From contig NZ_BCSQ01000016.1 in assembly GCF_001570945.1 (NCBI RefSeq), forward strand, positions 1 to 59,395: a DNA stretch of 59,395 nucleotides, written 5' to 3'. Positions 576-59,395 of the stretch are shown in pieces (position 1 is the first letter of the stretch; the number at the start of each line of letters is the position of its first letter). Under the pieces are notes generated by a model, which saw only the letters and a list, made by a program, of their open reading frames with translations, ran no database searches and had not been told where the DNA came from. This stretch comes from Janibacter anophelis NBRC 107843 (GTDB lineage: Bacteria > Actinomycetota > Actinomycetes > Actinomycetales > Dermatophilaceae). The position numbers and the translations under genes were made by a program.

Positions 576-624
576 ATGACGAAGGGGGTCGGGCACCGTG
601 GTGGTGCCCGACCCCCTTCGTCAT
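576..624. terminator. Perfect 22-bp hairpin, terminator
   Basis: Positions 576-597 and 603-624 are exact reverse complements around a 5-base loop. The stem lies just beyond the stop codon of the small leftward gene 638-817 and upstream of the leftward gene starting at 496, so it probably ends transcription of the former. Each arm carries CGAAGGGGG (580-588, and 612-620 on the other strand), the 9-mer that is over-represented across the window. No clear T-tract follows, which is normal for actinobacterial terminators. Confidence 0.8.
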
Positions 625-637
625 CAGTGGCGGAGCG

Positions 638-817
638 TCACTCGCCGATCTTGCCGTCGAGGAACTCGCGGCCCTGGTCGGTCTTCTCCGCATCGAGGCC
701 CTTGCCCTCGGCGAACTCGCCGGCCTTGTCCAGGCCCTGGTCGCTGTGCTCCTCGACCTTGTCGCTGTGCTCGCCGAGCGCGTCGGTGGCCTTGCCCTTC
801 AGATCGTCGAACCCCAT
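638..817 (-). CDS. Small Rv0909/MT0933 antitoxin-like or CsbD-like protein (59 aa)
   Basis: A 59-residue, highly charged helical protein opening MGFDDLKGKATDALGEHSDK and carrying a GLDKAGEFAEGKG segment. This resembles the MT0933_antitox (Rv0909) family, whose founding member is described as an antitoxin in mycobacteria; CsbD-type stress proteins look similar. The start is secured by AAGGAG six bases upstream. No toxin gene is adjacent (the neighbours are the PRC-barrel gene and YceI), so a role as a general stress protein is as likely as an antitoxin. It was found by reading the sequence, being below the usual size cut-offs. Confidence 0.75.
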   Translation of the reverse strand: MGFDDLKGKATDALGEHSDKVEEHSDQGLDKAGEFAEGKGLDAEKTDQGREFLDGKIGE

Positions 818-935
818 GGTGTTCTCCTTCTGTTGTCGGGTACCCGGTAGGTGGGCGTGCTCCTACCCAAACATGCCTCGGGTCGCGCATCAACCGGAAC
901 GGTGCCACGATGGGTTCAGGTGGTTGAAAAACCAA

Positions 936-967
936 TAGTTGACAAAACAACTAAAACCCTCTAGTGT
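936..967 (+). promoter_or_regulatory. yceI promoter with overlapping palindromic operator
   Basis: TTGACA at 939-944 and TAGTGT at 962-967 are separated by 17 bases, a good housekeeping sigma promoter. The -35 is embedded in the inverted repeat TAGTTG-N6-CAACTA (936-953), which looks like a dimeric repressor site of MarR or TetR size. A second small inverted repeat, TGGTT-N5-ACCA, lies just upstream (about 920-934). No regulator gene is adjacent, so the binding protein is unknown. The A/T-rich composition stands out in this GC-rich DNA. Confidence 0.7.
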
Positions 968-1028
968 TCTTCCTGTTCCACCAACCACCTGATCTTCCCC
1001 CCGATCACCCCGCCCCAAGGAGAACCCC

Positions 1029-1679: not shown

Positions 1680-2273
1680 ATGACGATCCACCCCATCACC
1701 ATCACCGGCGAGCCGGTGCTGCACACCCGCGCCGAGCCGGTCACCGAGTTCGACGGGCAGCTGCGCACCCTCGTCGAGGACATGTACGCCACGCAGGAGG
1801 CCGCCCACGGCGTCGGCCTGGCCGCCCCGCAGATCGGGATCGGCCTGCGGATCTACACGTGGAGCATGGCCAACGACGACGGGGTCCCCACGCTGGGGCA
1901 CGTCATCAACCCCTTCGTCCGGGCGGCCAAGCCCGCCGTCGGCGAGCCGGACCGTGACAACGAGTCCGAGGGCTGCCTGTCCGTGCCGGGCTACTCCTTC
2001 CCCCTGCGTCGCGGAGAGAGCGCCGAGGTGAGCGGCTACGACTGGGACGGCAACGAGATCTCGTTCTCGGCCACCGGCTGGTTCGCCCGCTGCATGCAGC
2101 ACGAGTACGACCACCTCAACGGGTTCCTCTACGTCGACCGGCTCAACGAGAAGTGGAAGAAGAAGGCCCGCAAGGCGGTCAAGGCCGAGGGTTGGGGCGT
2201 CCCCGGCCACACGTGGATGCCGGGGGAGGGGCCGGACCCCTTCGGTCACGACGACGACGTCGACGAGGAGTGA
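1680..2273 (+). CDS. def: Peptide deformylase
   Basis: Removes the formyl group from the N-terminal methionine of nascent proteins. All three deformylase motifs are present: GVGLAAPQIG, EGCLSVPG (the Cys metal ligand) and QHEYDHLNG (HExxH-type ligands). The 197-residue length is normal for actinobacteria. The start is placed at ATG 1680 because TAGGAT (1667-1672) ends 7 bases before it, the leaderless pattern shared by many genes here. An in-frame ATG at 1671 with GGAGG at 1658-1662 is an alternative that would add three residues. Its TGA overlaps the GTG of miaA. Confidence 0.95.
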   Translation: MTIHPITITGEPVLHTRAEPVTEFDGQLRTLVEDMYATQEAAHGVGLAAPQIGIGLRIYTWSMANDDGVPTLGHVINPFVRAAKPAVGEPDRDNESEGCLSVPGYSFPLRRGESAEVSGYDWDGNEISFSATGWFARCMQHEYDHLNGFLYVDRLNEKWKKKARKAVKAEGWGVPGHTWMPGEGPDPFGHDDDVDEE

Positions 2274-3193
2274 TCCCGCAGGTCATCGCTGTCGTCGGCG
2301 CCACGGCGACCGGCAAGTCGGACCTGGCGCTCGACCTCGCCGAGTCACTCGGCGGGGAGGTGGTCAATGCCGATGCCATGCAGCTCTACCGCGGCATGGA
2401 CATCGGGACCAACAAGCTGCCGGTCGAGCAGTGGCGCGGTGTCCCGCACCACCTCCTCGACGTGCTCGAGGTGACCGACGAGGCGACCCTCGCCGACTAC
2501 CAGGCGCGTGCCGAGGTCGCGGTCGTCGACATCCTGGGTCGCGGCCGCGTGCCGGTCCTCGCCGGCGGGTCCGGGCTCTACGTCCGGGCCGCGCTGGACC
2601 ACCTCGACATCCCACCGACCGACCCTGCGGTCCGTGCCCGGCTCGAGGCCCACGCCCAGGACGAAGGGGGGCGCGCCGCCCTTCGTCGTCGGTTGCGTGA
2701 GGTCGACCCCGCCGCCGCGGAGGCCATCGAGCCCAACAACACCCGGCGCATCATCCGGGCGCTCGAGGTCGTCGAGATCACCGGACGCCCGTTCTCGGCG
2801 ACGGCGCCCACGAAGCGCTACCGGCGCCCTTCGCTCGTCATCGGGCTGCGCGACGACTGGGACGCGCTCACGGACCGGATCGAACGCCGCGCGCGCACCA
2901 TGTGGGAGGCCGGGCTGCTCGACGAGGTGACCCGGCTCGACGCCGCCGGCCTGCGTCGGGGGCGGACCGCCTCGCGGGCCATCGGATACGCCCAGGCGCT
3001 CGGCGAGCTCGACGGGCGCTGGGGGCGCGAGGAGGCCATCGCCGACACCGCGCGCGCGACCCGCCGCTATGCCCGGCGGCAGGAGTCGTGGTGGCGCCCC
3101 GACCCGCGCGTGGAGTGGCTGGACGCCGCCGACCCGGCGCTGCCGGAGGCCGCGTCGCGGCTCGCGCGGCGTCCGACACAATGGACGCCATGA
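2270..3193 (+). CDS. miaA: tRNA dimethylallyltransferase
   Basis: Adds a dimethylallyl group to A37 of tRNAs that read UNN codons. The P-loop GATATGKS lies at about residues 10-17, followed by the NADAMQLYRGMDIGTNK substrate-binding segment and a late RRYARRQESWWRPD segment typical of MiaA. The start is GTG 2270, overlapping the def stop (GTGA), which gives 307 residues; the longer open frame upstream is def read out of frame. The gene contains GAC-GAA-GGG-GGG, an instance of the window-wide CGAAGGGGG motif using the rare GAA codon. It overlaps dapF by ATGA. Confidence 0.95.
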   Translation: MIPQVIAVVGATATGKSDLALDLAESLGGEVVNADAMQLYRGMDIGTNKLPVEQWRGVPHHLLDVLEVTDEATLADYQARAEVAVVDILGRGRVPVLAGGSGLYVRAALDHLDIPPTDPAVRARLEAHAQDEGGRAALRRRLREVDPAAAEAIEPNNTRRIIRALEVVEITGRPFSATAPTKRYRRPSLVIGLRDDWDALTDRIERRARTMWEAGLLDEVTRLDAAGLRRGRTASRAIGYAQALGELDGRWGREEAIADTARATRRYARRQESWWRPDPRVEWLDAADPALPEAASRLARRPTQWTP

Positions 3194-4059
3194 ACCTGCG
3201 TTTCACCAAGGGCCACGGCACCGAGAACGACTTCGTCCTCGTGCCCGACCTCGAGGGTGAGCTCGACCTCACCCCGGACCAGGTCGCGCGGCTCGCCGAC
3301 CGCCACGCCGGCATCGGCGGCGACGGCGTGATCCGCATCGTGCGCACGGCGCACGCGCGCGAGGAGGAGGTGCGGGCGCTCGCCGACGAGGCGGAGTGGT
3401 TCATGGACTACCGCAACGCCGACGGCTCGCTGGCGCAGATGTGCGGCAACGGCACCCGCGTCTTCGCCACGTGGCTGCGCCGCGAGGGCCTCGTCGGCGA
3501 GGAGTTCGCCATCGCGACCCGCGCCGGGCTGCGGCGGATCCGCTTCGAGGGCGAGGAGGTCGTCACGCACATGGGCACGTGGCGCTTCGTCGACGAGGCG
3601 AAGGCGCAGGCACAGGGCTTCGACGCGCTCGTCCACGTCGAGGAGGCCGAGGACGTCACCGAGCCGTACTCGGCACTCTCGCTCGACCTCGGCAACCCGC
3701 ACACCGTCGTCGCGCTGCCGGAGAACGTCAACCTCAACGGGTTGCGGTTGCGCCGCCCCCCGATGGTCAAGCCGGTGCCCCCGGAGGGGAGCAATGTCGA
3801 GTTCGTCCGCGTCCTCGGGCCGGGGCACATCTCGATGCGCGTGCACGAGCGGGGCGTCGGCGAGACCCGGTCCTGCGGCACGGGCGTGTGCGCGGCCGCC
3901 ATCGGGACCGCCTTCTGGTCCGGCGGCGCGGACTCGACCGGTGAGATGACCGTCGAGGTGCCCGGCGGCACGCTGCGCGTGCGGCTGCTGCCCGGCCGCG
4001 AGGTCGAGCTGGCCGGGCCCGCCGTGCTCGTGGTCGACGGGACGACGACGCTCGCCTGA
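3190..4059 (+). CDS. dapF: Diaminopimelate epimerase
   Basis: Converts LL- to meso-diaminopimelate for lysine and peptidoglycan. Both catalytic cysteine motifs are present: MCGNGTR (about residue 82) and SCGTGVCAAA (about residue 228). Length 289. The ATG at 3190 overlaps the miaA stop (ATGA); an in-frame ATG at 3181 inside miaA is possible but less likely. The miaA-dapF order is common in actinobacteria, where hflX often follows; here about 10.6 kb of other genes separates it from hflX. Confidence 0.96.
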   Translation: MNLRFTKGHGTENDFVLVPDLEGELDLTPDQVARLADRHAGIGGDGVIRIVRTAHAREEEVRALADEAEWFMDYRNADGSLAQMCGNGTRVFATWLRREGLVGEEFAIATRAGLRRIRFEGEEVVTHMGTWRFVDEAKAQAQGFDALVHVEEAEDVTEPYSALSLDLGNPHTVVALPENVNLNGLRLRRPPMVKPVPPEGSNVEFVRVLGPGHISMRVHERGVGETRSCGTGVCAAAIGTAFWSGGADSTGEMTVEVPGGTLRVRLLPGREVELAGPAVLVVDGTTTLA

Positions 4060-4110
4060 GGTCACTCCCTTCGTCCGATGGTGGTGAGTCCGCGGCGATA
4101 GCCTCCCCGG

Positions 4111-5013
4111 ATGGAGCTGCTGACGGACGCGGCGGTCGGGGACTGGCTGCTCGAGCGAGCGGGCGACTGGGGGCGGGTCGGGGGCGTTGCCGGGACGGGG
4201 TTCGAGGCGTACGCGCGGATCCTGCACCCGGTGCCGACGACCCGCATGGATCTCTCGACCGCTGACGAGTGGGGGATGCACCCGGTGCTCGAGGAGACAC
4301 GCTGGTCGTGGGCGCAGGTCGCGGCGCGACAGGGGCTGACGATGCACCCACTCGTCCAGTGGAACCGTCTCGCCGACCTGCACCAGGGGATCTCCTTCGA
4401 CGACGGCTGGCAGGTGGGGCAGACGGACGAGGGGCGACTCGGCAACGACCTCCTCGCCGGGCTCATGGAGCACCTGGCGCGAGAGACGGTCACACCCGAG
4501 GAGCTCGTGGTCGGGATCTGGAACGGCTGGGGCGAACTCACGGGCGGCGTCGCGGTGTGGTACGTGGCCGAGGGGAGGGGACCCGCGGCTTGGCTGGCGC
4601 GGCGTCGTGGACACCAGGAGGCCGAGCGGCGGCTGGAGGAGGCGCTGCGCCACGACATCCGGGACGCGGCGGCTCACGGACCGCACCTGGAGTGGCCGGG
4701 GAGGGAGATGGTCCTCTTCGCCACCTCGGTGGAGGAGCTGAGTGACCCCACGTGGGCCGAACGCGCCGGGATCGGCTCACAGCCCGGCTGGCCGGGCATC
4801 GGTCCGCAGCTCATCTGGTCGGCCGACCGGTCCTGGGTCGTGGCGAGCGAGATCGACTGGGACAGCACGATCGTCGCGGGCTCGCGCGCGCTCGTCGACG
4901 CGGTGCTCGCGGACGAGCGTCTCGAGGCCTACGAGGTCGACGAGGACGCGGACCTCACGTGGGAAGGCGACGTGGTCAATCCGCCGCGGGCCGGGTGGCG
5001 CGCAGCACCCTGA
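4111..5013 (+). CDS. Hypothetical protein (300 aa)
   Basis: I do not recognise a family. The protein is soluble, acidic and Trp-rich, with no signal peptide or membrane segment. It opens MELLTDAAVGDWLLERAG; the middle (VTPEELVVGIWNGWGEL) and the C-terminal part (WVVASEIDWDSTIVAGS) look like a conserved actinobacterial hypothetical. The start is supported by TAGCCT (4099-4104) six bases before the ATG, a leaderless arrangement. The last 38 bases overlap, tail to tail, the end of the leftward methyltransferase gene. Confidence 0.8.
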   Translation: MELLTDAAVGDWLLERAGDWGRVGGVAGTGFEAYARILHPVPTTRMDLSTADEWGMHPVLEETRWSWAQVAARQGLTMHPLVQWNRLADLHQGISFDDGWQVGQTDEGRLGNDLLAGLMEHLARETVTPEELVVGIWNGWGELTGGVAVWYVAEGRGPAAWLARRRGHQEAERRLEEALRHDIRDAAAHGPHLEWPGREMVLFATSVEELSDPTWAERAGIGSQPGWPGIGPQLIWSADRSWVVASEIDWDSTIVAGSRALVDAVLADERLEAYEVDEDADLTWEGDVVNPPRAGWRAAP

Positions 5014-5587
5014 AGCCCCGGCTCGACGCCGTCCGCTCGGTCGGCAGGCCGAGCTCGTCGGCGATCCAGCGTGCGTACGAGTCGGCGCCGAGGTTCTTGC
5101 CGATGACGAGGTGGGCGTCGGCACCCGGCGCCAGCCGTGGGAGCCAGGTGCGCAGCAGCTCGTGCACGGCTGGTTTGCCGATGCGGATCGGCGGGTTGGA
5201 CCAGATCGTGGCGAAGGGGGTGTCCGCCGGCACCTCGTCCGGCCGGACCGCGCGCACGTTGCCCAGCCCGAGGGCTGCGGCATTGCGACGGGTGAGGTCG
5301 AGGGCGCGTTCGGTGACGTCGACGGCCCAGACGGTGGCGCCGGGGGAGCGCAGGGCCAGGGTGAGGGCGATCGGTCCCCAGCCGCACCCGATGTCGAGCA
5401 GGTCTCCGGCAGAAGGGGGTTGGGGCACCTCGTCGAGGAGGATCGCCGTGGCCTTGTCCAGCCCTGCGGGGGAGAAGGTGCCGCCCGCGGTCTCGACGGT
5501 CACCTCGCGCCCGGCGAGCGTGACGGTGACGGTGCGGCGCTCGCCCGCGGTCGCAGCAGGCGAGTCGGTGAAGTAGTGGTCGGTCAC
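4976..5587 (-). CDS. Class I SAM-dependent methyltransferase, RsmC-like
   Basis: 203 residues with a Rossmann methyltransferase core: motif I LLDIGCGWGPIAL, motif II acidic end VWAVDVTERAL, and the N6/N2-methylating signature NPPIRIGK. Small 'MTS' domain proteins of this size resemble the C-terminal half of RsmC, which methylates G1207 of 16S rRNA; the exact target here is inferred. The start is GTG 5587, six bases after TAAGGT (5594-5599 read leftward). The 3' end overlaps the rightward gene 4111-5013. Confidence 0.88.
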   Translation of the reverse strand: MTDHYFTDSPAATAGERRTVTVTLAGREVTVETAGGTFSPAGLDKATAILLDEVPQPPSAGDLLDIGCGWGPIALTLALRSPGATVWAVDVTERALDLTRRNAAALGLGNVRAVRPDEVPADTPFATIWSNPPIRIGKPAVHELLRTWLPRLAPGADAHLVIGKNLGADSYARWIADELGLPTERTASSRGFRVLRATRPAAD

Positions 5588-5685
5588 CGCCCCACCTTAG
5601 GTCGGCCCTGTGCCGATCGCGGAGGGCTGTCGGTGGCCAGTGGGAGCGTCGTGGTGATGGCGGGTCGGGGAAGTGGATCCACCTC

Positions 5686-5714
5686 TTGACAGATTCGAAC
5701 AGGTGTTCGAAGAT
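5686..5714 (+). promoter_or_regulatory. SOS (LexA) box in the promoter of the HNH/DUF222 gene
   Basis: TCGAAC-AGGT-GTTCGA (5695-5710) is a perfect palindrome matching the actinobacterial/Gram-positive LexA box core CGAAC-N4-GTTCG. It sits immediately behind TTGACA (5686-5691) and covers the spacer up to a weak -10 (GAAGAT, 5709-5714), so LexA binding would block transcription. The start of the downstream gene is about 24 bases further on. Confidence 0.85.
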
Positions 5715-5737
5715 GGACGTAGCGCAAAGGGGGCGTG

Positions 5738-7321
5738 ATGTCGGAGCAGTCGCAGACCGAGGAGGGCCACGAGCCGGGAGGGGACCCGGCCGGGCTGGCG
5801 GTCGTGCCCGGGCTGCCCGATCGTCTGCGCGCCGCCGCCGAGGCCCTGTCCGCCGCCCGCCCCGAGGGGCTCGACGAGAGCGAGTTGCTCGAGGTCCTCA
5901 CGGCGCTCGAGGCGACGAAGGGCGCGGCTGCTGCCCTCCAGGCGCGAGTGACCGCGCAGTTCGTGGAGCAGCGAGATGCCCGGGTGGCCGAGCAGCGCGC
6001 CGACGAGCAGATCTCGGCCCGGGACGCGCGGTGTCGCCGCCGCAGCTCCAGGGCCGAGGTGGCCCTGGCGCGCAGGTGCTCGCCGGGGCAGGCGGATCGT
6101 CACGTCGGGATCGCTCGGGCGCTCGTCCACGAGATGCCGCAGACGATGGCCGCGCTGACGGTCGGTGCGATCGGGGAGTGGCGCGCGACGATCATGGTCC
6201 GGGAGACCGCGTGCCTGTCGGTCGAGGACCGGATGGAGGTCGACCGGCGGCTCGCCGGCGACCTGACCCGGCTCGGTGACAAGGAGCTGGCCGCAGCGGC
6301 CCACCGTGCGGCCGCAGACCTGGACGCGGAGGCCATGGTGCGACGCCGGCGCAAGGCGGTGGCCTCACGCAGCGTGTCGGTGAGGCCGGCACCGGACGGC
6401 ATGGCCTGGCTGAGCATCCTCGGGCCGATGGTCGACGCGGTGGGGGCGTTCGCGGCCCTGCGGGCGGCGGAGTCGGCCCGGCACGTGGCGACCGGCGACC
6501 CGCAGGTCGACGCCGAGCGAGCGGCCGATGAGCGCGGCCGTGGGGCCTGGATGGCCGACACCGCGCTGGAGCTGCTGTCCGGGCGGGCCGCCGGTCAGGT
6601 GCAGCCGGTGGAGGTCGGGCTCGTCATGGGGCCGGGGTCGCTCCTGCCGGAGGGGCATCCCTTCGCTCGGGTGGCCGGCGGAGGGCCCACCTGCGCGGAC
6701 CCTGCGTGCTCCGATCCGGCGTGCCCCGAGACCACCCGATCTGTGCCCACCGGCGCGGCCGGCGTAGGCGACGAGGTCGAGGTCGTCGGCCACGGTGCGT
6801 GGCCCGGTGACCTGGCCCGCGAGCACCTCCTCCGCCTGTGCGACGCCGGGACGTCCACCTGGCTGCGCCGCCTGTGGACCACACCCGAGGGCCGTGACCT
6901 CGTCGCCATGGACTCGGCCCGCCGGGTCTTCGGCGGAGCATTGCGCCGGTTGATCGAGCTGCGCGACGGAGGCCGGTGCCGGGTGCCGTGGTGCGGTGCA
7001 CCTATCCGCGACATCGACCACGTCGACCCGGTCGCCGGTGGTGGCGTGACCTCCGCGGCCAACGGGATGGGCGTGTGCCAGCTGCACAACCTCGTCAAGG
7101 AAGCCGGCTGGACCGGCGCGGTGATCGAGACCGGGCTCGACCCCGGCGGTGGGTCCCACGAGGCCACCCTCACCACCCCGACAGGCAGCGAGTACCGATG
7201 TCCCGCGCCGCCATTGCTCGGCCGCGGTCGCGGAGCACCCTCCCGCCGACGGGCCATACGCCCCGACCTGAGGGACTCACCCTTCGAGATCCAGCTCGTC
7301 GCGGCCTTCGACGCGGCGTGA
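5738..7321 (+). CDS. DUF222 / HNH endonuclease-domain protein (13E12-like), SOS-controlled
   Basis: 527 residues. The first ~330 form a helical DUF222-type region with many Arg and Ala; the C-terminal ~110 residues carry an HNH nuclease fold: CRVPWCGAPIRDIDHVDP (paired Cys, Asp-His), then GVTSAANGMGVCQLHNLVK (Asn, Cys-xx-His). Such proteins are multicopy in actinobacteria (the 13E12 repeat family of Mycobacterium) and some behave like mobile or group-I-intron-like elements. AAAGGGGG lies just upstream; GTG 5735 is a possible alternative start. The LexA box at 5695-5710 predicts induction by DNA damage. It converges on glpK. Confidence 0.88.
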   Translation: MSEQSQTEEGHEPGGDPAGLAVVPGLPDRLRAAAEALSAARPEGLDESELLEVLTALEATKGAAAALQARVTAQFVEQRDARVAEQRADEQISARDARCRRRSSRAEVALARRCSPGQADRHVGIARALVHEMPQTMAALTVGAIGEWRATIMVRETACLSVEDRMEVDRRLAGDLTRLGDKELAAAAHRAAADLDAEAMVRRRRKAVASRSVSVRPAPDGMAWLSILGPMVDAVGAFAALRAAESARHVATGDPQVDAERAADERGRGAWMADTALELLSGRAAGQVQPVEVGLVMGPGSLLPEGHPFARVAGGGPTCADPACSDPACPETTRSVPTGAAGVGDEVEVVGHGAWPGDLAREHLLRLCDAGTSTWLRRLWTTPEGRDLVAMDSARRVFGGALRRLIELRDGGRCRVPWCGAPIRDIDHVDPVAGGGVTSAANGMGVCQLHNLVKEAGWTGAVIETGLDPGGGSHEATLTTPTGSEYRCPAPPLLGRGRGAPSRRRAIRPDLRDSPFEIQLVAAFDAA

Positions 7322-7322
7322 C

Positions 7323-7335
7323 CGAGCGGGGCTCG
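7323..7335. terminator. Short hairpin between converging genes
   Basis: CGAGC-GGG-GCTCG (7323-7335) lies between the stop codons of the HNH gene (7321) and glpK (7351). The stem is only 5 bp, so it is a weak candidate for a bidirectional terminator. Confidence 0.35.
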
Positions 7336-7350
7336 AGCAGGATGCGTCGC

Positions 7351-8883
7351 TCAGACCACGTCGTCGTCGACCCAGTCGAGGGTCTTGCTGATCGCCTTGG
7401 TCCAGTTGCGGTGCAGCCGCTCGACCTCGGCCTCGTCCATGGTCCGCGTCCACCGCGTGTCCTCGGCCCAGTTGTCGACGATCTCGTCGGTCGAACCCCA
7501 GTAGCCGACGGCGAGGCCGGCGGCGTAGGCGGCGCCGAGAGCGGTGGTCTCGGCGATCCGGGGCCGCACGACGTCGACCCCGAGCACGTCCGCCTGGAAC
7601 TGCATGAGGGTCTCGTTGGCCACCATGCCGCCGTCGACCTTGAGCTCGGTCAGGCGTCCACCGGCCCGCTCGGCGTCGTCCTGCATCGCGTCGAGCACGT
7701 CGCGGGTCTGGTACGCGGTGGACTCCAGGGCGGCTCGGGCGATGTGGCCCTTGTTGGCGAAGCGGGTCAACCCGAGGATCGCCCCGCGGGCATCCGGCCT
7801 CCAGTGCGGGGCGAAGAGCCCGGAGAAGGCCGGCACGAAGTACACGCCACCGTTGTCCTCGACGCTCAGCGCGAGCTGCTCAACCTCCGGCGACTCCCGG
7901 ATGAGACCCAGGTTGTCGCGCAGCCACTGGATGAGCGACCCGGTGACCGCGATCGAGCCCTCGAGCGCGTACACCGCCGGCTCCTCACCCAGCTGGTAGC
8001 ACACGGTCGTCAGCAACCCGTTGTCACTCGAGACGATCTCGGTGCCCGTGTTGAGCAGCATGAAGTTGCCGGTGCCGTACGTGTTCTTCGCCGACCCCGG
8101 GGTGAGGCAGGCCTGGCCGAACGTCGCCGACTGCTGGTCCCCGAGGATCCCCGAGATCGGGGTGCCGTTGAGCACGCCCGGCTTGCACTCGCCGTAGATC
8201 TCCGACGAGGAGCGGATCTGCGGCAGCACCTGCACTGGGACCCCGATCGCCTCGCAGGTCGCCTCGTCCCACTGAAGGGTCTCCAGGTCCATGAGCATCG
8301 TGCGCGAGGCATTGGTGACGTCGGTGACGTGGACACCTTCGTTCTCCCCGCCGCCGGTGAGGTTCCACAGCACCCAGGTGTCCATCGTCCCCGCGAGCAG
8401 CTCGCCGGCCTCAGCGCGCTCGCGCGCCCCGTCGACGTGGTCGAGGATCCAGGCGATCTTGGGCCCGGCGAAGTAGGTCGCCAGCGGGAGCCCGCACACG
8501 TCCTTGAAGCGGTCCAGGCCCCCGTCGTGCGCCAGCTCGTCGACGAGTGCCTGGGTCCGGGTGTCCTGCCAGACGACGGCGTTGTGGATCGGCTGGCCGT
8601 TCGCCTTGTCCCACACGACCGCCGTCTCACGCTGGTTGGTGATGCCGACCGCCGCGATGTGGCCGCTGTTGAGGTTGGCCTTGCCCAGGGCGCCTCCGAT
8701 GACGCGGCGGGTGTTGTCCCAGATCTCCAGGGCGTCGTGCTCGACCCATCCGGCCCGCGGGAAGATCTGCTGGTGCTCGATCTGGTCGGTCGCGACGACC
8801 GAGCCGTCGCGGTCGAAGACCATCGCCCGGGTGCTCGTCGTCCCCTGGTCGATCGCCAGCACGTACGTCGTCGCTGCACTCAT
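7351..8883 (-). CDS. glpK: Glycerol kinase
   Basis: Phosphorylates glycerol with ATP to glycerol-3-phosphate. FGGY-family signatures are clear: [17 protein letters not shown] near the N-terminus, [15 protein letters not shown], and the C-terminal [13 protein letters not shown]. About 510 residues, the usual size. Start chosen at ATG 8883 ([14 protein letters not shown]), seven bases after CAGGAT; an in-frame ATG at 8892 would add MPD. It is divergent from glpD across only ~60 bases, so the two glycerol genes share a control region. Confidence 0.97.
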
Positions 8884-10649: not shown

Positions 10650-10738
10650 CCTCCCGGCCACCTCTCCGTCACCCGGCCCACCCCGGACGTCATCGCCGCC
10701 CGCCTGTGCAGTTCACGTGCCCTGAGCAGGCTGGGGAC

Positions 10739-49096: not shown

Positions 49097-49099
49097 GCC

Positions 49100-49873: not shown

Positions 49874-49910
49874 GGGACCCACGCTAGCCACCGGGTGGGA
49901 GGATGGCGCG

Positions 49911-51890: not shown

Positions 51891-52600
51891 CAGGCGTTGA
51901 TCGAGTTCAGTTGAGGGGATTCTCGGTGCGGCGCGGGTCATTTCGCCTGTCGCCCATGGACATCGAACTGTCGACCGAGCGAGTGGCGCTCATCGGGGTC
52001 AATGGCTCGGGCAAGACGACTCTCATGCGCTCGATGCTCGGGCTGTTGCGCCACTCAGGGACCCTCATGGTCGGCGACGCCGCCTGTGCCCACCTTCCCC
52101 CAGAGCGGACGGGCTTCGTCCCCCAGGACGTGGACTTTCCTCTGCTGCTCACGGTGCAGGAGTGTGTCGGGATGGCGGCTGACCTCAAAGGGTTGCCGGA
52201 TGTCGATCGCTCCGAGGCGGTCACACGTGTCCTGACCGCCGTGGACCTCATCGACGAACGGCATGTGCGGGCCTCCCGGCTCAGCGGCGGGCAGCAGCGA
52301 CGGCTCGCCTGCGCTCAGGCCTTCGTCCATGACCCCCAGATCCTCCTCATGGACGAACCAACCGCCGGCCTGGACCCGATCCAGCGCGAGAGGTTGCGGG
52401 GGATCCTCCAGGACCTCCCGAAGGACCGGCTGGTGCTCGTCACCACGCACATCCTCGAGGACGTGGCGGAGTGGGCCGAGCGGTTCCTCGTCCTCAGCGA
52501 GGGCGAGATCACCCATGACGTGCAGCGCGACGAGTTGGGCGACCCGGGTCAGAGACTCGGGGCGCTCAACGACCTCCTTGCCCTGGTGCCCTCGCGATGA
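51887..52600 (+). CDS. ABC transporter ATPase subunit
   Basis: 237 residues with a full nucleotide-binding domain: Walker A LIGVNGSGKTTLMRSMLG (about 36-53), Q-loop GFVPQDVDFPLLLTVQE, signature SRLSGGQQRRLACAQAF, Walker B ILLMDEPTAGLDP and switch His VLVTTHILEDVAEWA. It resembles BcrA/CcmA-like exporters (drugs, bacteriocin immunity, peptides). GTG start overlaps the peptide gene stop; TGA overlaps the permease ATG (ATGA). Codon use is less GC-rich than neighbouring backbone genes. Confidence 0.9.
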   Translation: MTGVDRVQLRGFSVRRGSFRLSPMDIELSTERVALIGVNGSGKTTLMRSMLGLLRHSGTLMVGDAACAHLPPERTGFVPQDVDFPLLLTVQECVGMAADLKGLPDVDRSEAVTRVLTAVDLIDERHVRASRLSGGQQRRLACAQAFVHDPQILLMDEPTAGLDPIQRERLRGILQDLPKDRLVLVTTHILEDVAEWAERFLVLSEGEITHDVQRDELGDPGQRLGALNDLLALVPSR

Positions 52601-53781
52601 GGTGGCTGCGCGCGAATCCCGTGGGCCCCGTCGTCTTCAGTTGCGCGGTGCTGGTCCTCGTCGTCGGACAGGTCAGGCTACCGCCCGCGCTGGGGCGAGA
52701 CGCCGCGTCGACTGTCGACATCTCTGGCTCCCTGCTGTACCTCGCCCTGCCCCTCCTGGCGATGCTGGTTGCCTGTGGGGTGGCGTGGGTCCAGAAGGAG
52801 CGCACCCTGGAGACCCTGCTGGCCGTACGCCCACGCGTGGCTCGTCTGCGCCGCCTGATGACGTTGGTCATCTGGGCGGGTGCGGCGCCTCTCCTTGTCT
52901 CGGCCGTCACGCTGATCCACACACAGGACTGGGCCGTCGACCGACCGCTCTACGCCGCAGTGACCCTTCCGCAGGTGCTGTGGATGTGCCTCATGGCCAT
53001 CATTGGCTTCCTCGTCGGTGCCTTTGCGCACAGGTACGCCGCCCCGCTGCTCGCCGGTGTGCTTGTGCTCCTGCTGATCGTCACCGGTCGGTGGGCTCTC
53101 TACCCTCTGGGGCACTCCGCCTCGCTCGCGGGCACGACGCCCACAACTGCCTCGTGGGTCACTCCGCTCCTCATCATGACCGTGACCGTGGTGGCGGCGA
53201 TCATCGGGGTGGGGCGACTGCCCATGTGGGCGTCGCGAGGGGGTGTACTCGTCGCCCCCGCCATGGTGCTGGCCGTCGTGATGGCCAATCCCCTCGTACC
53301 GTCACAAGAGTTCCGCCAGGCGCGGAGCGGACGTGAGGCCTGCACGGACGGGCCAGTGGCCGTCTGCGCACAGGCTGTCCACAGGCGTTGGGCGGAGGCC
53401 ACGGCGCGATCTGCTGCCGAACTCCAGGAGGCAGCCAAGCAGCACGGGCTGACTCTGCCCGTCACCCGCATCGTCATCAACGCGGGTGACACGCGACCGG
53501 CGGAGCCGACGGGCGTGGGAGAGGCGAGGGTGTACCTCGACTCCCGCAACGCGCCGGTGAGCATGCCCATGGACCAGCTGGCGCAGGTCCTGGTCGGCGC
53601 GTCCTGTGCGGGTGGTGAAGGCCAGGCACTCGCCGCGGTCGCGGCGTGGTTGTCAGCCACGGTCACGGCCACGGAGGAGTCGTTCACGGAGGGCTGGCCG
53701 GAGTTCGCGGGCCTGTCCGAGACGGACAAGCGGGCGTTCGCCCGCAACGCCCTCGCGGGTGTCGAGTGCGGAGGTCAGTGA
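52597..53781 (+). CDS. ABC transporter permease with Cys-containing outer domain
   Basis: 394 residues; not recognised beyond its context. About six hydrophobic segments fill residues 10-230 (e.g. LLYLALPLLAMLVACGVAW, LLAGVLVLLLIVTG). Residues ~235-394 form a soluble domain, presumably outside, with four cysteines (C249, C257, C337, C391) that could make two disulfides. Coupled by ATGA to the ATPase and by GTGA to the next gene. The outer domain may bind the exported or sensed ligand. This is unusual for a small ABC-2-type permease. Confidence 0.75.
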   Translation: MRWLRANPVGPVVFSCAVLVLVVGQVRLPPALGRDAASTVDISGSLLYLALPLLAMLVACGVAWVQKERTLETLLAVRPRVARLRRLMTLVIWAGAAPLLVSAVTLIHTQDWAVDRPLYAAVTLPQVLWMCLMAIIGFLVGAFAHRYAAPLLAGVLVLLLIVTGRWALYPLGHSASLAGTTPTTASWVTPLLIMTVTVVAAIIGVGRLPMWASRGGVLVAPAMVLAVVMANPLVPSQEFRQARSGREACTDGPVAVCAQAVHRRWAEATARSAAELQEAAKQHGLTLPVTRIVINAGDTRPAEPTGVGEARVYLDSRNAPVSMPMDQLAQVLVGASCAGGEGQALAAVAAWLSATVTATEESFTEGWPEFAGLSETDKRAFARNALAGVECGGQ

Positions 53782-54362
53782 GGCTGACGTGGCTGAGTGT
53801 CCGAGCCACGGCAGCTGAGCATGCGGTGTTCTTCGCGTCCCTCGTCGGCGGGCTCCTCTGGGGTGCAATACGGCTTCCCCTGCCTGTCGAAGCGACGCTG
53901 CAGCCGGACGCGGCACTCATCTGGGCGTGCGTCGTCGCGTGTGCATCGGGTGTGTGCTTGCGGGCCGTCCTCCCGGGGCACGACGACATCCCGCGACGGC
54001 CACAGCCGATGTGGGTCGCGGGACGGGTCGTTGTCCTCGTCGGGGCCGCCGGGTGTGTGCTGATCGCAACCCGACTGCTCCATCCAGCTGGGGACGCGAG
54101 CGAGGTGCACGTCGCGCTGGCGCGCAACATCACCGCACTCGTCGGCCTTGTCCTGGTCACGAGGCGCCTGCCCAGGGGGGTCTGGTCCACCCTGCCGTGG
54201 CTGTGGGTCTTCGGAGCGCTTCTGTCCGGACGTGACCGCCAAGGACAGGTCGAGTGGTGGGCGCTGCCACTGGCTGAGCCGGAGCGAGGGTGGACGGTGG
54301 CCTTGGCCCTGTTGCTCGTGGGAGCCCTCGTGCACGTCGCCGGCGAGCTGCGTCACCGGTGA
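53778..54362 (+). CDS. Second membrane protein of the peptide-ABC cassette
   Basis: 194 residues, about six hydrophobic segments (HAVFFASLVGGLLWGAI, LIWACVVACASGVCLRAVL, VALALLLVGALVHVAGEL). No family recognised; it lacks an obvious enzymatic motif. Start is GTG 53778, overlapping the permease TGA, so it is the last member of the coupled cassette. It may be a second permease half or an immunity/anchoring protein. Confidence 0.7.
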   Translation: MRLTWLSVRATAAEHAVFFASLVGGLLWGAIRLPLPVEATLQPDAALIWACVVACASGVCLRAVLPGHDDIPRRPQPMWVAGRVVVLVGAAGCVLIATRLLHPAGDASEVHVALARNITALVGLVLVTRRLPRGVWSTLPWLWVFGALLSGRDRQGQVEWWALPLAEPERGWTVALALLLVGALVHVAGELRHR

Positions 54363-54417
54363 CCACTCCACGGACCCAGGTGTGCGAGCGCTTACCTCGT
54401 GGCGCACGATGGTGCGC

Positions 54418-55173
54418 ATGACCACGACTCGTACCGCCATCGTCACCGGAGCCGCCCGCGGGATCGGCCGGGCCATCGCCCTGCGCCTCGCCACCGACGG
54501 CCACCACGTCGCCGTCCTCGACCTCGACGAGTCCGCCTGCCAGGATGTCGTCGACGAGATCACCGAAGGGGGCGGCACCGCCCTGGCCGTCGGAGTGGAC
54601 GTCTCCGACCCCGAGCAGGTCGGGACGGGCGTCGCCCGCGTCGCCGAGGAGCTCGGCGCCCCGACGCTGCTCGTCAACAACGCCGGCATCATCCGCGACA
54701 ACATGCTCTTCAAGATGTCCGTCGACGACTGGGACTCCGTCATGGCCGTCCACCTGCGCGGCGCCTTCCTCATGACCAAGGCCGCCCAGGCCCACATGAC
54801 CGCGCAGAAGTACGGCCGCATCGTCAACCTCTCCTCGACCTCCGCCCTGGGCAACCGCGGCCAGACGAACTACTCCGCGGCCAAGGCCGGCATGCAGGGC
54901 TTCACCAAGACCCTGGCCATCGAGCTCGGCAGGTTCGGCGTCACCGCCAACGCCATCGCCCCGGGCTTCATCCAGACCGACATGACCGCCGCGACGGCCG
55001 AGCGCATCGGGGTGCCCTTCGAGGACTTCCTCGCCCACGCCGCCAAGGAGACCCCGGTCGGCCGCGTCGGCCAGCCCGAGGACATCGCCGCCACCGCCTC
55101 CTTCCTGCTGTCCGAGGAGGCCGGCTTCGTCTCCGGCCAGGTCATCTACGTCGCCGGCGGCCCCAAGGACTGA
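54418..55173 (+). CDS. Short-chain dehydrogenase/reductase, FabG-like
   Basis: 251 residues: NAD(P)-binding GAARGIGRAIALRLA, the NNAG motif (LLVNNAGIIRDNMLFK), catalytic Ser/Tyr/Lys in SSTSALGNRGQTNYSAAKAG, and APGFIQTDMT. It is closest in look to 3-oxoacyl-ACP reductase, yet substrate is unproven. Start chosen at 54418 (CACGAT seven bases before); ATG 54409 is an alternative. It contains a CGAAGGGGG copy. Confidence 0.88.
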   Translation: MTTTRTAIVTGAARGIGRAIALRLATDGHHVAVLDLDESACQDVVDEITEGGGTALAVGVDVSDPEQVGTGVARVAEELGAPTLLVNNAGIIRDNMLFKMSVDDWDSVMAVHLRGAFLMTKAAQAHMTAQKYGRIVNLSSTSALGNRGQTNYSAAKAGMQGFTKTLAIELGRFGVTANAIAPGFIQTDMTAATAERIGVPFEDFLAHAAKETPVGRVGQPEDIAATASFLLSEEAGFVSGQVIYVAGGPKD

Positions 55174-55413
55174 CGCTCCCGAGAGGGAGGTCGGACTGGA
55201 CGCACCCGAGCGGCCCGACGGACTGGACGCACCGAGAGGGAGGTCGAAGGGGGATGTCGGCGCACACAAAGCCGAAGTCAGGCACGACAACCTGCGTCAC
55301 AGGGAGACGAAGGACTTCGGCGGGCGCCGACGTCTCCTTCGGCCGACCGGCGGGGACGACCTCCCTTCGGCTGACCGGCGGGGACGGCATCCCCTCGGCC
55401 AGCACGGACGCGC
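55174..55413. repeat. Repeat-bearing intergenic region between SDR and DUF3097
   Basis: Three short sequences each occur twice: CGAGAGGGAGGTCG (55180-55193, 55233-55246), CGGACTGGACGCACC (55192-55206, 55219-55233) and a ~25-base unit with CTTCGG and GACCGGCGGGGACG (55334-55358, 55361-55386, differing at a few bases). The repeats overlap and alternate, suggesting slippage or an old duplication. The region separates converging genes; a weak GAGACG/CGTCTC hairpin is near 55303-55336. No gene is apparent. Confidence 0.65.
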
Positions 55414-56292
55414 CTACTCCGGTGCCGTGACGAAGTCGATGAGCTCCTCGACGCGGCCGAGGAGGGCGGGCTCGAGGTCGGCGTAGGTGCGGACGGTGCC
55501 GAGGATCTGCTTCCAGGCGCGGGCGATGTCGGCCTGGGTGTCGTGGGGCCAGCCGAGGTGCTGGCAGATCCCCTTCTTCCACTCGATGGAGCGGGGGATC
55601 GTCGGCCACGCGTCCATGCCGAGGCGCTGGGGCCGCACGGACTGCCAGACGTCGACGTAGGGGTGACCGAGCACGAGCACGTGGTCCGGGGCCACCTGGT
55701 TGGCCTTGGCGACGATGCGTGACTCCTTGCTGTCCGGCACGAGGTGGTCGACGAGCACGCCCATCCGGCGCCCCCGGCCGGGCCCGAAGTCGCGGATCGC
55801 GGTTGACAGGTCGTCGACGCCGTCGAGCGGTTCGACGACGACGCCCTCGACGCGCAGGTCGTGGCCCCAGACCTTTTCGACGAGCTCGGCGTCGTGCCGG
55901 CCCTCGACGAAGATCCGCGAGGCCCGCGCGACCTTGGCGCTCTTGTCGTGGACGGCCACCGACCCGCTGGCCGTGCGGGAGGCCGCCTGCTGGGCCGCGG
56001 CGAGGGCCGCGCGCTGCGCCCCCTTCGGCGCGGTGAGGGTGACGGGACGCCCGTCGACGTGGAAGCCGGGGCCGAGGGGGAAGGCCTTGACCTTGCCGCG
56101 GCGGTCCTCGAGGTGGACGACGTGGACGCCGCCGGCCTTTTCCACCGCGACGACGGCGCCGACCCAGCCGGTCTCGACGTCCTCGACGACCGTGCCGCGG
56201 ATCGCCTCGAGGGCCTGGGAGGTGGGACGGGCCAGCCGGCCCGTGGACTTCCAGTCGCCGGAGAGGACGTCGTTGCCGTATCGATCGCTCAC
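55414..56292 (-). CDS. DUF3097 protein
   Basis: 292 residues. Matches the actinobacterial DUF3097 family commonly found next to hrcA-dnaJ: a start like SDRYGNDVLSGDWKSTG, the VGAVVAVEKAGGVHVVHLED strands, ASRIFVEGRHDAELVEKVWG (TOPRIM-like Glu/Asp region) and VLGHPYVDVWQSVRPQ. Function unknown; the TOPRIM-like core suggests nucleic acid or nucleotide handling. Start GTG 56292 is set by TACGGT six bases before it, shortening an upstream in-frame ATG at 56337. Confidence 0.85.
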   Translation of the reverse strand: MSDRYGNDVLSGDWKSTGRLARPTSQALEAIRGTVVEDVETGWVGAVVAVEKAGGVHVVHLEDRRGKVKAFPLGPGFHVDGRPVTLTAPKGAQRAALAAAQQAASRTASGSVAVHDKSAKVARASRIFVEGRHDAELVEKVWGHDLRVEGVVVEPLDGVDDLSTAIRDFGPGRGRRMGVLVDHLVPDSKESRIVAKANQVAPDHVLVLGHPYVDVWQSVRPQRLGMDAWPTIPRSIEWKKGICQHLGWPHDTQADIARAWKQILGTVRTYADLEPALLGRVEELIDFVTAPE

Positions 56293-56373
56293 GCAGGGAC
56301 CGTAGGCCGAAGGGGGGCGCCGCGGCGGCAGCGGCACGCCGGACTTCGAGGAATGCCCCGGCCGGTCGTAGAC

Positions 56374-56400
56374 TTGGCACTCAGGTGGAGCGAGTGCCAG
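56374..56400 (+). promoter_or_regulatory. CIRCE element (HrcA operator)
   Basis: TTGGCACTC (56374-56382) and GAGTGCCAG (56392-56400) flank nine bases, matching the CIRCE consensus TTAGCACTC-N9-GAGTGCTAA at 16 of 18 positions. It lies just behind a TAGACT -10 (about 56369) and 14 bases before the hrcA start, so HrcA should repress its own operon, including dnaJ. Confidence 0.9.
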
Positions 56401-56414
56401 CGAAGGAGGTCAGC

Positions 56415-57449
56415 ATGAGCCAGGAGCGTCGCATGGCCGTCCTGAGCGCCATCGTCGAGGACTACGTGCAGACCTCGGAGCCCGTCGGCTCCAAGGCGCT
56501 GCTCGACCGCCACCAGCTCAACGTCTCGGCCGCGACCGTGCGCAACGACATGGCCGCCCTCGAGGACGAGGGCCTGATCGTCGCGCCGCACACCTCCGCC
56601 GGCCGCATCCCGACCGACGCGGGCTACCGCCTCTTCGTCGACCGGCTCGCCGCGATCCGGCCGATGTCGAAGGGGGAGCGCGCCGCGATCACCGACTACC
56701 TCGAGGGCGCGGACGATCTCGACGTCGTGCTCGACCGCACGGTGCGGCTGCTGTCGACTCTGACCCGCCAGGTCGCGGTCGTGCAGTACCCCTCGCTGAC
56801 CCGCAGCACCGTCAAGCACATCGAGCTGGTGCCGATGAGCGAGACGCGGCTCATGGTCGTCGTCATCATGGGCAGCGGCCGCGTGGAGCAGCGCATCGTG
56901 CCGATCGGCGTCGACTACCTGAGCGCCGACGGGGCCGCAGCCCTCACGAGTGCCCGCGCCCGGATCAACGCGGCGACCCACGACCGGCGTCTGGCCGAGG
57001 CCCTCACCTCGCTCGGCACCCTGCACGACGAGGACTCCGAGACCGAGGACGCCCTCACGGCGGGCGTGCTCGCCGCGCTCGAGGACGCCTTGGCCGAGGA
57101 GCGCGCCACCAAGGTGACGCTCGCCGGCACGGCCAACCTCGCGCGCAGCTCCAGCGACTTCCCGATGACGCTCGAGCCCGTGCTCGACGCGCTCGAGCAG
57201 CACGTCGTGCTCCTGCGGCTGCTGAGCGCCGAGGCGGACGGCGACGCGATGGGCGTCTCCGTGCGCATCGGCTCGGAGAACCCCGTCACCGGGCTGCAGA
57301 GCACCTCGCTCATCACGTCGGGCTACGGCTCGGGCGACGAGCACGTCGGGGCCGTCGGCGTGCTCGGCCCCACCCGTATGGACTATCCCGCGACGATGGC
57401 GCAGGTCCGCGCCGTCGCCGCCTACCTCTCGCGGATCGTGGACGCCTGA
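56415..57449 (+). CDS. hrcA: Heat-inducible transcription repressor HrcA
   Basis: 344 residues. N-terminal winged helix ([56 protein letters not shown]) and the HrcA-specific C-terminal GAF-like region ([37 protein letters not shown]). It represses class I heat-shock genes at CIRCE, with GroEL as cofactor. GAAGGAGG precedes the ATG by five bases. dnaJ follows at 55 bases. Confidence 0.97.
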
Positions 57450-57504
57450 CCGGCATCCGCCCCGCACCCCAGCAACCGAACCACGACCCACGAGGACGCC
57501 ACGC

Positions 57505-58626
57505 GTGAACGACTACTACGAGGACCTCGGCGTCAGCCGCGACGCCACGCCCGAGGAGATCAAGCGGGCCTACCGCAAGCTCGCCCGCACCCTGCACCCG
57601 GACGTCAACCCCGGCGCGGAGGCCGAGGAGCGGTTCAAGAAGGTCTCTCAGGCCTATGACGTGCTCTCCGACGAGGGCAAGCGCCGCCAGTACGACATGG
57701 GCGGGGACCCCTACGGCGGCAGCCACGAGGGCTTCGGGGCCGGGTTCACCTTCAGCGACATCATGGAGCAGTTCTTCGGCCAGGCCGCCGGTGGCGGCGG
57801 TCGCGGTCCCCGCTCGCGCTCCGCGCGCGGGCAGGACGGCCTCGTCGGCCTCGAGATCGACCTGGCGACCGCCGTCTTCGGCGGCCAGGAGGACCTGACG
57901 ATCGACACTGCCGTCGTGTGCACCGCGTGCTCCGGCGACGGAGCCCAGCCGGGCACCGGGCGACGCACGTGTGACACCTGCGCCGGTCGCGGCGAGGTGC
58001 AGCAGGTCCAGCGCTCCTTCCTCGGCCAGGTCATGACGAGCCGGCCCTGCCCGACCTGCCAGGGCTTCGGCGAGGTCATCCCCAACCCGTGCCACGAGTG
58101 CTCCGGCCAGGGCCGCGTCCGCAGCCGCCGGACGATGAAGGTGCGCATCCCCGCGGGCGTCGACAGCGGCACCCGGATCCACCTCGCCGGCGAAGGGGAG
58201 GTAGGTCCCGGTGGCGGGGCGGCCGGAGACCTCTACGTCGAGCTGCGCGTCGCCGAGCACGAGACCTTCACCCGTCGCGGCGACGACCTGCACGCCTCCG
58301 TCGCGGTGCCGATGACGGCGGCCGCGCTCGGCGTGACGATGAGCTTCGCCACCCTCGACGGCGAGCAGGAGATCACGATCAAGCGCGGCACCCAGCCGGG
58401 CGACACGATCGTCCTCGAGGGCCTGGGCGTCACTCACCTGCGGCGCGAGGGCCGCGGTGACCTCGTCATCCACGTCGACGTGCGGACGCCGACCCGCCTG
58501 GACGCGGAGCAGGAGCAGCTGCTGCGTGACCTCGCGCGGCTGCGCGAGGAGGAGCAGCCCGACGGCGAGCTCGACGACGTCGACTCCGGCTTCGTCGGGC
58601 GCCTGCGACACGCCTTCAAGCGCTGA
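57505..58626 (+). CDS. dnaJ: Chaperone DnaJ (DnaJ2-type)
   Basis: 373 residues: J domain with HPD (residues 31-33), a short Gly/Arg-rich linker with Phe ([16 protein letters not shown]), four zinc-finger CxxCxGxG motifs ([32 protein letters not shown]) and two beta-barrel substrate domains. It stimulates DnaK. It starts at GTG 57505. The linkage to hrcA rather than dnaK identifies it as the second actinobacterial DnaJ. Confidence 0.97.
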
Positions 58627-58644
58627 CGGCCCGGACGCCGCGCG

Positions 58645-59395
58645 ATGTTGCGCCGCTTCGTCGGCCTCGACGGCACACCGCAGGCGTCGGCGGCGCTCGA
58701 CGCGTCGCTGCGCACCACCCCTGAGCAGCTCGGGCCGGTGCGCTCCCGGCACACCGTGCCCGCCGCCTCGCGTCCCGTGGCGGCCCTGCTCGCGGTCGTC
58801 GGGGTCGTGGTGGTCCTGGCCGTCGCGGCCGCGACCGTGCTCGTGGTGCTCGGCGCGCTGCCGGTGGCCGCCGTCCTGTGCCCTCTGGCCATCGGGGTGG
58901 CCGTGGCAGTGCTCGTCGGGGTGGGTCTCGCGGCCACCCACGACAGCCGGGGCATCGAGGTGCGCGCCCACGGCCTGGTCGTCGGCTCGCGCCCGGTCCC
59001 CTTCGCGACGATGGACCCCGGCCGCATGGTGTGGGCGACGTCCGCCCGGGCTGCCCGCTCCGTCGTCACGCTCGCCCGGCGCCGCCGGGTGGCCGGCGGG
59101 GAGTGCCTGCTGCTCAACGGCACCGACGGGCCCGACGCCGTCGACGACTGGCGAGGCCTCGGGGGCAGGTACGACCCGTTGCCGCGGGCCCCGCGGCTGG
59201 ACACCCCCTTCGTCTGGTGGGCGCTCGGCCCCCGCGACGTCGGCGCCTTCGTCCGTGACCTCGAGGCGGCGATGGTCGCCGACGGCTACCCCGTGCACGG
59301 GCTCGCCGACCACCTGGCGCGGCACCGGACCGACGTGCCGGCCGGTCGCGAGGCCCTCTCGCGCCGGGCGCCGCACGACCCGCCGCTGTGGCGGG
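58645..59395 (+). CDS. Two-helix membrane protein, paralogue of 45934-46656 (3' end outside window)
   Basis: The frame opens at ATG 58645 (MLRRFVGLDGTPQASAALDA), 18 bases after dnaJ, and runs off the window. Two adjacent membrane helices (AALLAVVGVVVVLAVAAATV and LPVAAVLCPLAIGVAVAVLV, about 45-90) precede a soluble region with GRMVWATSARAARSVV, CLLLNGTDGP, TPFVWWALGPRD and VRDLEAAMVADGYPVHG. The VLNGT, PF-W, and EAAMVA-GY segments line up in order with the WXG100-operon protein, so the two belong to one unnamed family. In many actinobacteria rsmE follows dnaJ; here this gene intervenes. Confidence 0.7.
   Translation, partial: MLRRFVGLDGTPQASAALDASLRTTPEQLGPVRSRHTVPAASRPVAALLAVVGVVVVLAVAAATVLVVLGALPVAAVLCPLAIGVAVAVLVGVGLAATHDSRGIEVRAHGLVVGSRPVPFATMDPGRMVWATSARAARSVVTLARRRRVAGGECLLLNGTDGPDAVDDWRGLGGRYDPLPRAPRLDTPFVWWALGPRDVGAFVRDLEAAMVADGYPVHGLADHLARHRTDVPAGREALSRRAPHDPPLWR

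Follow-up and report, generated by a model that had tools for sequence, protein, structure and literature searches.

A nine-base word spread through Janibacter genomes is a candidate DNA uptake sequence

The stretch of DNA analysed here (the window) comprises the 59,395 nucleotides of NZ_BCSQ01000016.1, contig 16 of the 3.31-Mb, 124-contig genome of Janibacter anophelis NBRC 107843 (GCF_001570945.1). Its most over-represented 9-mer is the word CGAAGGGGG, which appears as CCCCCTTCG when it lies on the reverse strand; an order-3 Markov model expects 1.6 copies, and 34 were observed, 22 forward and 12 reverse. The initial annotation had counted 34 exact copies by hand, and every position that it gave carries the word. 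Its count of seven further copies of the 8-mer CGAAGGGG was too low, as this 8-mer totals 45 (26 on the plus and 19 on the minus strand), leaving 11 further copies. According to our own gene caller, on which all coding and noncoding labels of copies rest, 28 of the 34 copies are within genes and 6 are outside.

Among the forward copies, nine are in the sense direction of genes (encoded residues in brackets): 2662..2670 and 25354..25362 (DEGG), 9376..9384 (TKGG), 17141..17149 (GEGG), 21153..21161 (HEGG), 25717..25725 (AEGG), 50020..50028 (AKGA), 54564..54572 (TEGG), and 56668..56676 (SKGE). Nine more are antisense, at 5212..5220, 13662..13670, and 34367..34375 (TPFA), 12843..12851 (SPFV), 13065..13073 (APFG), 23400..23408, 23493..23501, and 33149..33157 (APFA), and 46143..46151 (SPFG), and four are noncoding (580..588, 34448..34456, 55245..55253, and 56308..56316). 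Reverse copies are sense at 34154..34162 (TKGA) and 56019..56027 (PKGA), antisense at 16204..16212, 21521..21529, and 39868..39876 (TPFA), 26582..26590 (SPFG), 35883..35891 (SPFD), 45522..45530 (PPS), 49918..49926 (PPFG), and 59204..59212 (TPFV), and noncoding at 612..620 and 20785..20793. The copies at 580..588 and 612..620 are the left and right arms of an inverted pair.

Synonymous null models were run on 459 kb of the source genome, consisting of the window and 20 other stretches with 455–456 genes. (The source genome is coded G000, G009 and the like are other assemblies, and L-numbers are individual sequence stretches.) The genes of this sample hold 223 copies of CGAAGGGGG, 112 sense and 111 antisense. 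Shuffling synonymous codons within genes gave 33.1 ± 5.0 copies with a maximum of 46 in 100 shuffles, and pooled synonymous resampling without the word's own codons gave 29.4 ± 4.6 with a maximum of 42. A codon-preserving shuffle thus does not yield a similar count, and the proposal that codons are chosen so as to preserve the word is supported, with an excess over the synonymous null of 7.6-fold in G000 and 5.9-fold in G009. The enrichment reported in the initial annotation is real; the expectation that it drew from base composition was too low, and copies in genes exceed expectation about 7-fold instead of 17-fold. It had also placed most copies in coding sequence in several frames. This agrees with the 28 copies in genes and with the use of all six frames in the 459-kb sample, mainly as AKG/TKG, xPF, and xEGG. 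The reversed word was found twice in the genes of G000, where 5–6 copies were expected.

The enrichment extends beyond the window. The whole G000 genome contains 1,850 copies of CGAAGGGGG (935 forward and 915 reverse) and 26 of the reversed word, and all 16 genomes of the genus Janibacter contain between 797 and 1,860 copies. A protein encoded in the window shares 92–93% identity with Janibacter limosus, J. terrae, J. indicus, and J. hoylei sequences, which places the source organism in or next to this genus. The other 32 genera of the family, represented by one genome each, have 12–74 copies, and 30 genomes of the same order have 5–67. Marihabitans asiaticum, which belongs to a different genus by name, has 9 copies in 21.7 kb. 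The density is 1.69 copies per kb in noncoding DNA versus 0.54 in genes in G000, and 1.90 versus 0.43 in G009. The word and this pattern are firm.

Between species, the word is retained about twice as well as random 9-mers (41–75% versus 18–53%). Intact orthologous copies numbered 86/209, 252/436, 60/89, and 12/16 in the 75, 80, 85, and 90% identity bins, where random 9-mers were intact in 18, 25, 35, and 53% of cases; each pair was entered once per direction and overlapping loci occur, which means that the cells are not independent. Permuted words were intact in 408 of 1,900 cases over all bins, no better than random 9-mers. The flanks favour G at position −2 (77%) and A or G at −1 (74%), with little beyond those two bases. 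When orthologous copies differ by a single base, 64 of 118 changes are G8 to A, which gives the variant CGAAGGGAG. This variant has 97–886 copies in the 16 genomes of the genus versus 7–26 in the 13 others searched, and the window carries five, all on the minus strand (4065..4073, 24644..24652, 31571..31579, 33127..33135, and 55361..55369). Because G8 to A dominates the changes and CGAAGGGAG is abundant in the genus, we write the motif as CGAAGGGRG. It is very improbable that the word merely results from codon use, recurring amino-acid motifs, a family of dispersed repeats, or an assembly fault. The synonymous null is indeed not zero, at 29 expected copies, but 223 were observed, the reversed word stays at chance, all 16 genomes share the excess, permuted words are retained no better than random, and the flanks carry little more than two preferred bases.

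The initial annotation had raised the idea of a chromosome-organising word. Strand polarity was measured along the replichores of G009, a single contig with dnaA at base 481. On 20 even stretches the leading-to-lagging ratio of CGAAGGGGG was 120:104, and 128:109 when two more stretches were added, while the positive controls CGGGGGAG and GGGGGAGA reached 105:4 and 41:0 in the same test. The window has a separate word, GGGGGAG, that resembles the FtsK-orienting polar sequences (KOPS) and is polarised 27:1, with plus copies at 2222, 5342, 5468, 9381, 9554, 12847, 17301, 18506, 20296, 22252, 22419, 23047, 23455, 24156, 25721, 30768, 33813, 34601, 38489, 40010, 43044, 45773, 46147, 48529, 50435, 51556, and 56672 (within 2222..56678) and a single minus copy at 11048. 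Judged by the polarity of GGGGGAG in G009, the plus strand of the window should be the leading strand. Five of the 22 forward copies of CGAAGGGGG overlap GGGGGAG (those at 9376, which is followed by GAG, 12843, 25717, 46143, and 56668), leaving 17:12, so the strand bias that had been noticed in the window comes in part from copies overlapping the polarised word.

When stretches were oriented by GGGGGAG (20 of 22 in each of G000 and G009, those without clear polarity being excluded), 9-mer copies without a following AG were split 119:115 in G000 and 79:96 in G009, and CGAAGGGGGAG, the form in which the 9-mer overlaps GGGGGAG, was split 41:4 and 27:1. A word that orients FtsK by pointing from the origin towards the terminus could account for the 22:12 split in the window and for the ratios of CGAAGGGGGAG, but the polarity vanishes once the overlaps are removed and the replichores of G009 show none. 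We therefore rejected CGAAGGGGG as a KOPS, a role with next to no remaining probability; what these genomes share with KOPS is GGGGGAG, which overlaps part of the copies of an otherwise unpolarised 9-mer. GGGGGAG also looks KOPS-like in sister genera, where few copies were seen, and is usable for orienting contigs. The variant CGAAGGGAG tilts to the lagging strand, 23:46 in G000 and 34:56 in G009 (38:62 in the replichore test of G009), and may substitute where GGGGGAG would point in the wrong direction. A one-strand run of CGAAGGGAG in G014 was considered and dropped, as the whole count there is 158:155.

The copies are evenly spaced. With copies up to 60 bp apart merged, the variance-to-mean ratio over 171 5-kb bins of G000 and G009 was 0.63 (P = 4e-5 against Poisson), and each of 85 10-kb bins had at least one copy; two control words gave 1.00 and 1.23, and these are much rarer than CGAAGGGGG and so weak controls. 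Adjacent copies within 35 bp are mostly convergent: 27 such pairs occur among 522 copies, compared with about 2.8 expected per orientation and with 6, 3, and 2 pairs in the other orientations. Eighteen of the 27 convergent pairs extend outside genes, and 16 of these 18 lie 1–38 bp from a neighbouring stop codon. The pair in the window is predicted to form a terminator-like RNA hairpin (576..624; −49.3 kcal/mol, z −9.6), 18 bp beyond the stop codon of the called minus-strand gene on its right; three other pairs were folded, giving one strong hairpin (z −5.9) and two weaker ones (−2.9 and −1.7). Such hairpins may terminate transcription. Close, opposed pairs of the uptake signal sequence (USS) at gene ends act as terminators in Haemophilus influenzae, as described in PMC7811141, and inverted pairs of the DNA uptake sequence (DUS) of Neisseria are associated with terminators, as described in PMC3630211. 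We found no downstream T-tracts like those of USS after CGAAGGGGG; base composition after coding copies mostly tracks codon phase.

Related genera carry different words. CGGCATAC occurs 939–4,724 times in 17 of the 32 sister genera (one genome each), 196–293 times in 3, and 11–95 times in 12, compared with 9–38 times in the 16 Janibacter genomes and 2–167 times in the 30 genomes of the same order. CGGCATCC is high in G041 (3,949) and G031 (3,816), lower in G067 (1,548) and G016 (1,336), and at 253–976 in the other 74 genomes. CGGCGTAC is the top word of the G038 sample (30 in 40 kb), and GAGGCATCC occurs 30 times in 60 kb of G067, a member of another family (L209, L229, and L230); it has GGCATCC in common with a dialect of Janibacter's family. 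In the samples, the sister words exceed synonymous nulls 5- to 30-fold, and CGGCATAC is unpolarised (78:86 by strand, 12 of 17 stretches being orientable). There was no such word in the 60–94 kb sampled from G017, G023, G025, and G029. In 16 genomes of other families, sampled at 20 kb each, no equally strong word was found, a depth at which a weaker word would escape; short stretches of G059 and G068 were left aside.

We placed the words on a tree of concatenated TadA, TadB, and TadC from 30 genomes, a midpoint-rooted gene tree with open forks and not a species tree. The seven Janibacter rows form one clade (100/100) nested among CGGCATAC rows, and G031 and G041, which carry CGGCATCC, adjoin the CGGCATAC genome G030. 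The word labels require 9 changes versus a shuffled mean of 16.1; CGGCATAC alone requires 7 and is not one clade.

These comparisons bear on a further explanation, that the word is recognised by an orphan DNA methylase, a HIP1-like factor, or a nucleoid protein and has spread for reasons other than uptake. Even spacing on both strands would fit such a site, and HIP1 of cyanobacteria, a palindromic octamer, is similarly abundant. However, CGAAGGGGG is not palindromic, unlike HIP1, and convergent pairs at gene ends together with sister dialects one base apart are the pattern of DUS and USS. We regard this explanation as unlikely.

ComEC is present in 46 of 47 genomes and was rejected as a marker of word-bearing genomes, being found nearly everywhere. 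ComEA and ComEC domains were both found, and the two genes are adjacent in G009. PilM of type IVa pili was found in 0 of the 16 Janibacter genomes and in 2 of the 32 other family genera, and a type IVa pilus was accordingly rejected as the machine. Two tad loci are present, Tad-A and Tad-B; the latter lies upstream of prfB-ftsE-ftsX and contains tadA, tadB, tadC, Flp, and TadE/TadG-like minor pilins. Among the family's 33 genera, TadA of Tad-B is missing from G021, G028, and G029 alone, and all three are wordless, so that a word is present in 0 of 3 genera without Tad-B versus 22 of the 30 that have it (one-sided 0.03, calculated by hand); this link is only suggestive. In this count G031, which like G034 and G035 has 196–293 copies of CGGCATAC, was entered for CGGCATCC, and the other two as wordless. 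The Tad-B minor pilins of G000 diverge from those of relatives more than TadA does, and none stands out as a receptor. The Flp pilin frame of Tad-A (L152, about 232–660, at the end of contig 64 in G000) diverges from those of its relatives beyond the pilin motif, by an assembly fault or a frameshift. In Micrococcus luteus, as described in PMC4322843, two tad clusters and comEA/EC serve transformation and Tad pili are required. Janibacter likewise has comEA, comEC, and two tad clusters that include minor pilins of the TadE/F type; a difference is that the main text of PMC4322843 does not contain the term 'uptake sequence'.

The tadA gene of Tad-B (tadA-B) is interrupted in four genomes. The inserts of G022 (11 kb, L214 1850–12880) and G043 (35 kb, L215–L216) lie near codons 203–209, and each has a serine integrase beside one junction and phage-type primases inside; one of the two has type I restriction-modification genes. 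The gene is cut at codon 209 in G032, adjoining an AbiTii-like gene (L220 10530–18900), and at about codon 267 in G009, with a C5 methylase inside (L219 2000–11760), so that three of the four sites are near codons 203–209. The stretches read from G032 and G009 (60 kb in G009) yielded neither tadB nor tadC, and no integrase was found among the few proteins scanned; these two insertions are presumably mobile elements as well. Partial tadA-B genes in G004, G036, and G044, some at contig ends, were left out of the count. Three inserts, and three only, contain together 1 copy of the host's word versus 26.1 expected; the G043 genome is wordless, and its insert was therefore excluded here. As described in PMC4774983, mobile elements are known to disrupt competence genes as part of an arms race.

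This scarcity bears on another proposal of the initial annotation, a Chi-like word, up to which a helicase-nuclease of the RecBCD, AddAB, or AdnAB type would degrade DNA, self DNA being rich in the word. CGAAGGGGG resembles Chi in being non-palindromic, G-rich, conserved, and genome-wide, Chi words differ between clades, and a word scarce in the three inserts would suit the model. However, Chi is usually orientation-biased along replichores, in several species, whereas CGAAGGGGG has no replication polarity (119:115 and 79:96); it also has a threefold noncoding excess and 27 convergent pairs, which are useless to a polar single-strand signal, and the sister words are quite different in composition. 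A Chi-like role is improbable, and we keep it as a weakly placed rival.

The annotation's last suggestion, the recognition site of a protein, fared best. We consider that CGAAGGGRG, mostly as CGAAGGGGG and with GR favoured before it, probably serves the Janibacter group as a DNA uptake sequence, a reading that fits the pattern better than Chi, DNA modification, or KOPS. The copies exceed expectation by far in all 16 genomes (797–1,860 each); they occur in both orientations without replication polarity; inverted pairs resemble terminator hairpins by position and predicted folds; the dialects are clade-specific; and genes for transformation machinery are present, namely comEA/comEC and two tad loci, as genes alone and with tadA-B broken in G009. 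In the proposed mechanism, CGAAGGGRG would label self DNA, and a receptor, for which a minor pilin from the conserved Tad-B locus upstream of prfB-ftsEX is the likeliest candidate, would bind the word in free DNA, after which ComEA and ComEC would bring the labelled DNA in. Preferential uptake and recombination of labelled fragments could then spread the word through the genome by molecular drive. Such drive would yield high copy number on both strands, even spacing, no replication polarity, the word wherever codons allow, few copies in recently acquired DNA, and words that differ by clade, with convergent pairs being reused as terminators.

Haemophilus and Neisseria use such words to pick out self DNA among the free DNA available for uptake. 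According to PMC12616744, DNA uptake sequences are known from Neisseriaceae and Pasteurellaceae only. The Janibacter word resembles the USS of Pasteurellaceae in being a 9-mer found about once per kb with opposed close pairs at gene ends, which in the case of USS function as terminators (PMC7811141), and in the occurrence of two types within one family, as PMC12616744 describes. It differs in phylum, cell envelope, and the lack of downstream T-tracts and of PilM of type IVa pili, and its role in uptake is putative. The DUS of Neisseriaceae, as presented in PMC3630211, come in dialects that agree with the core-genome tree and form terminator-associated inverted pairs, and in these respects the words described here are comparable; the difference is that the words are unrelated, the Janibacter word replacing the sister word and being no variant of it. 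The DUS receptor ComP is described as a type IV minor pilin, whereas the Janibacter candidates are Tad pilins.

Several observations weigh against an uptake sequence. G009, with the most copies of CGAAGGGGG (1,860), has a broken tadA-B, and G022 and G032 likewise keep their words despite a broken gene, which requires either recent loss or another machine. Tad-B is present and the word absent in G017, G023, G024, and G025, and the minor pilins are mere candidates for the receptor. Where CGGCATAC is abundant, its reversed control is elevated too, at 2.5- to 26-fold below the word (453 versus 1,142 in G030, 99 versus 2,535 in G032), and close pairs of CGGCATAC are few, 5 within 45 bp. Among the sister words, the excess in noncoding DNA varies: it is distinct in G041, slight in G018 and G019, and reversed for GAGGCATCC in G067. 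Bins of low guanine-plus-cytosine (GC) content are just mildly poorer in CGAAGGGGG, with 3.3 copies per 5 kb below 68% GC versus 5.0 above 74% (Spearman 0.22). Finally, the titles listed from the open-licence literature, among them 15 of the 71 papers that contain the nine letters, included no paper on natural transformation in Janibacter and none on such a word in Actinobacteria, Actinomycetota, or Micrococcales.

Other repeats were met along the way. The palindrome CGCGCATYTCCCCGGGGAAATGCGCG, mostly intergenic and sometimes in short tandem runs, has 20 core matches in the 459-kb G000 sample, with examples at L086 429–474, L087 19973, L088 57, and L091 79–171. Similarly built palindromes with other letters, AACTCTGCAAAACCCTAGGGTTTTGCAGAGTT and CGCAACTGCCCGGGCAGTTGCG, occur in G009 (L106 4937 and 10367; L117 10027) and G001 (L231 19632–19875; L232 16847–16960), and the palindromes of these three genomes are perhaps a species-specific repeat family. 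The palindrome GCGATCGC, the core of cyanobacterial HIP1, is the top 8-mer in 20 kb each of L204 (G060; 30 versus 7.1 expected) and L207 (G063; 16 versus 4.6). G023 (L144, L145, and L191) is strongly enriched in G/C runs of at least 9, with 43 nine-mers versus 1.6 expected.

Taken more widely, we lean towards a picture in which a Gram-positive actinobacterial family, and perhaps a second one (from one genome, with GAGGCATCC), recognises self DNA for transformation by a word read by pilins of the Tad/Flp type and not of type IVa. The older word would have been CGGCATAC-like, with single-base dialects in several genera; the Janibacter lineage would have swapped it for CGAAGGGRG, partly fused with GGGGGAG, and mobile elements would counter the system by inserting themselves at a single position in the gene for the pilus ATPase. 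If this is true, uptake words would be new for Actinobacteria and would be a third independent case, in another phylum and with another type of pilus. The several dialects and one full word swap would allow molecular drive to be tested against selection as the origin of such words. The finding would also give a lead on the DNA receptor of Tad pili and allow predictions as to which Actinobacteria use transformation to exchange genes.

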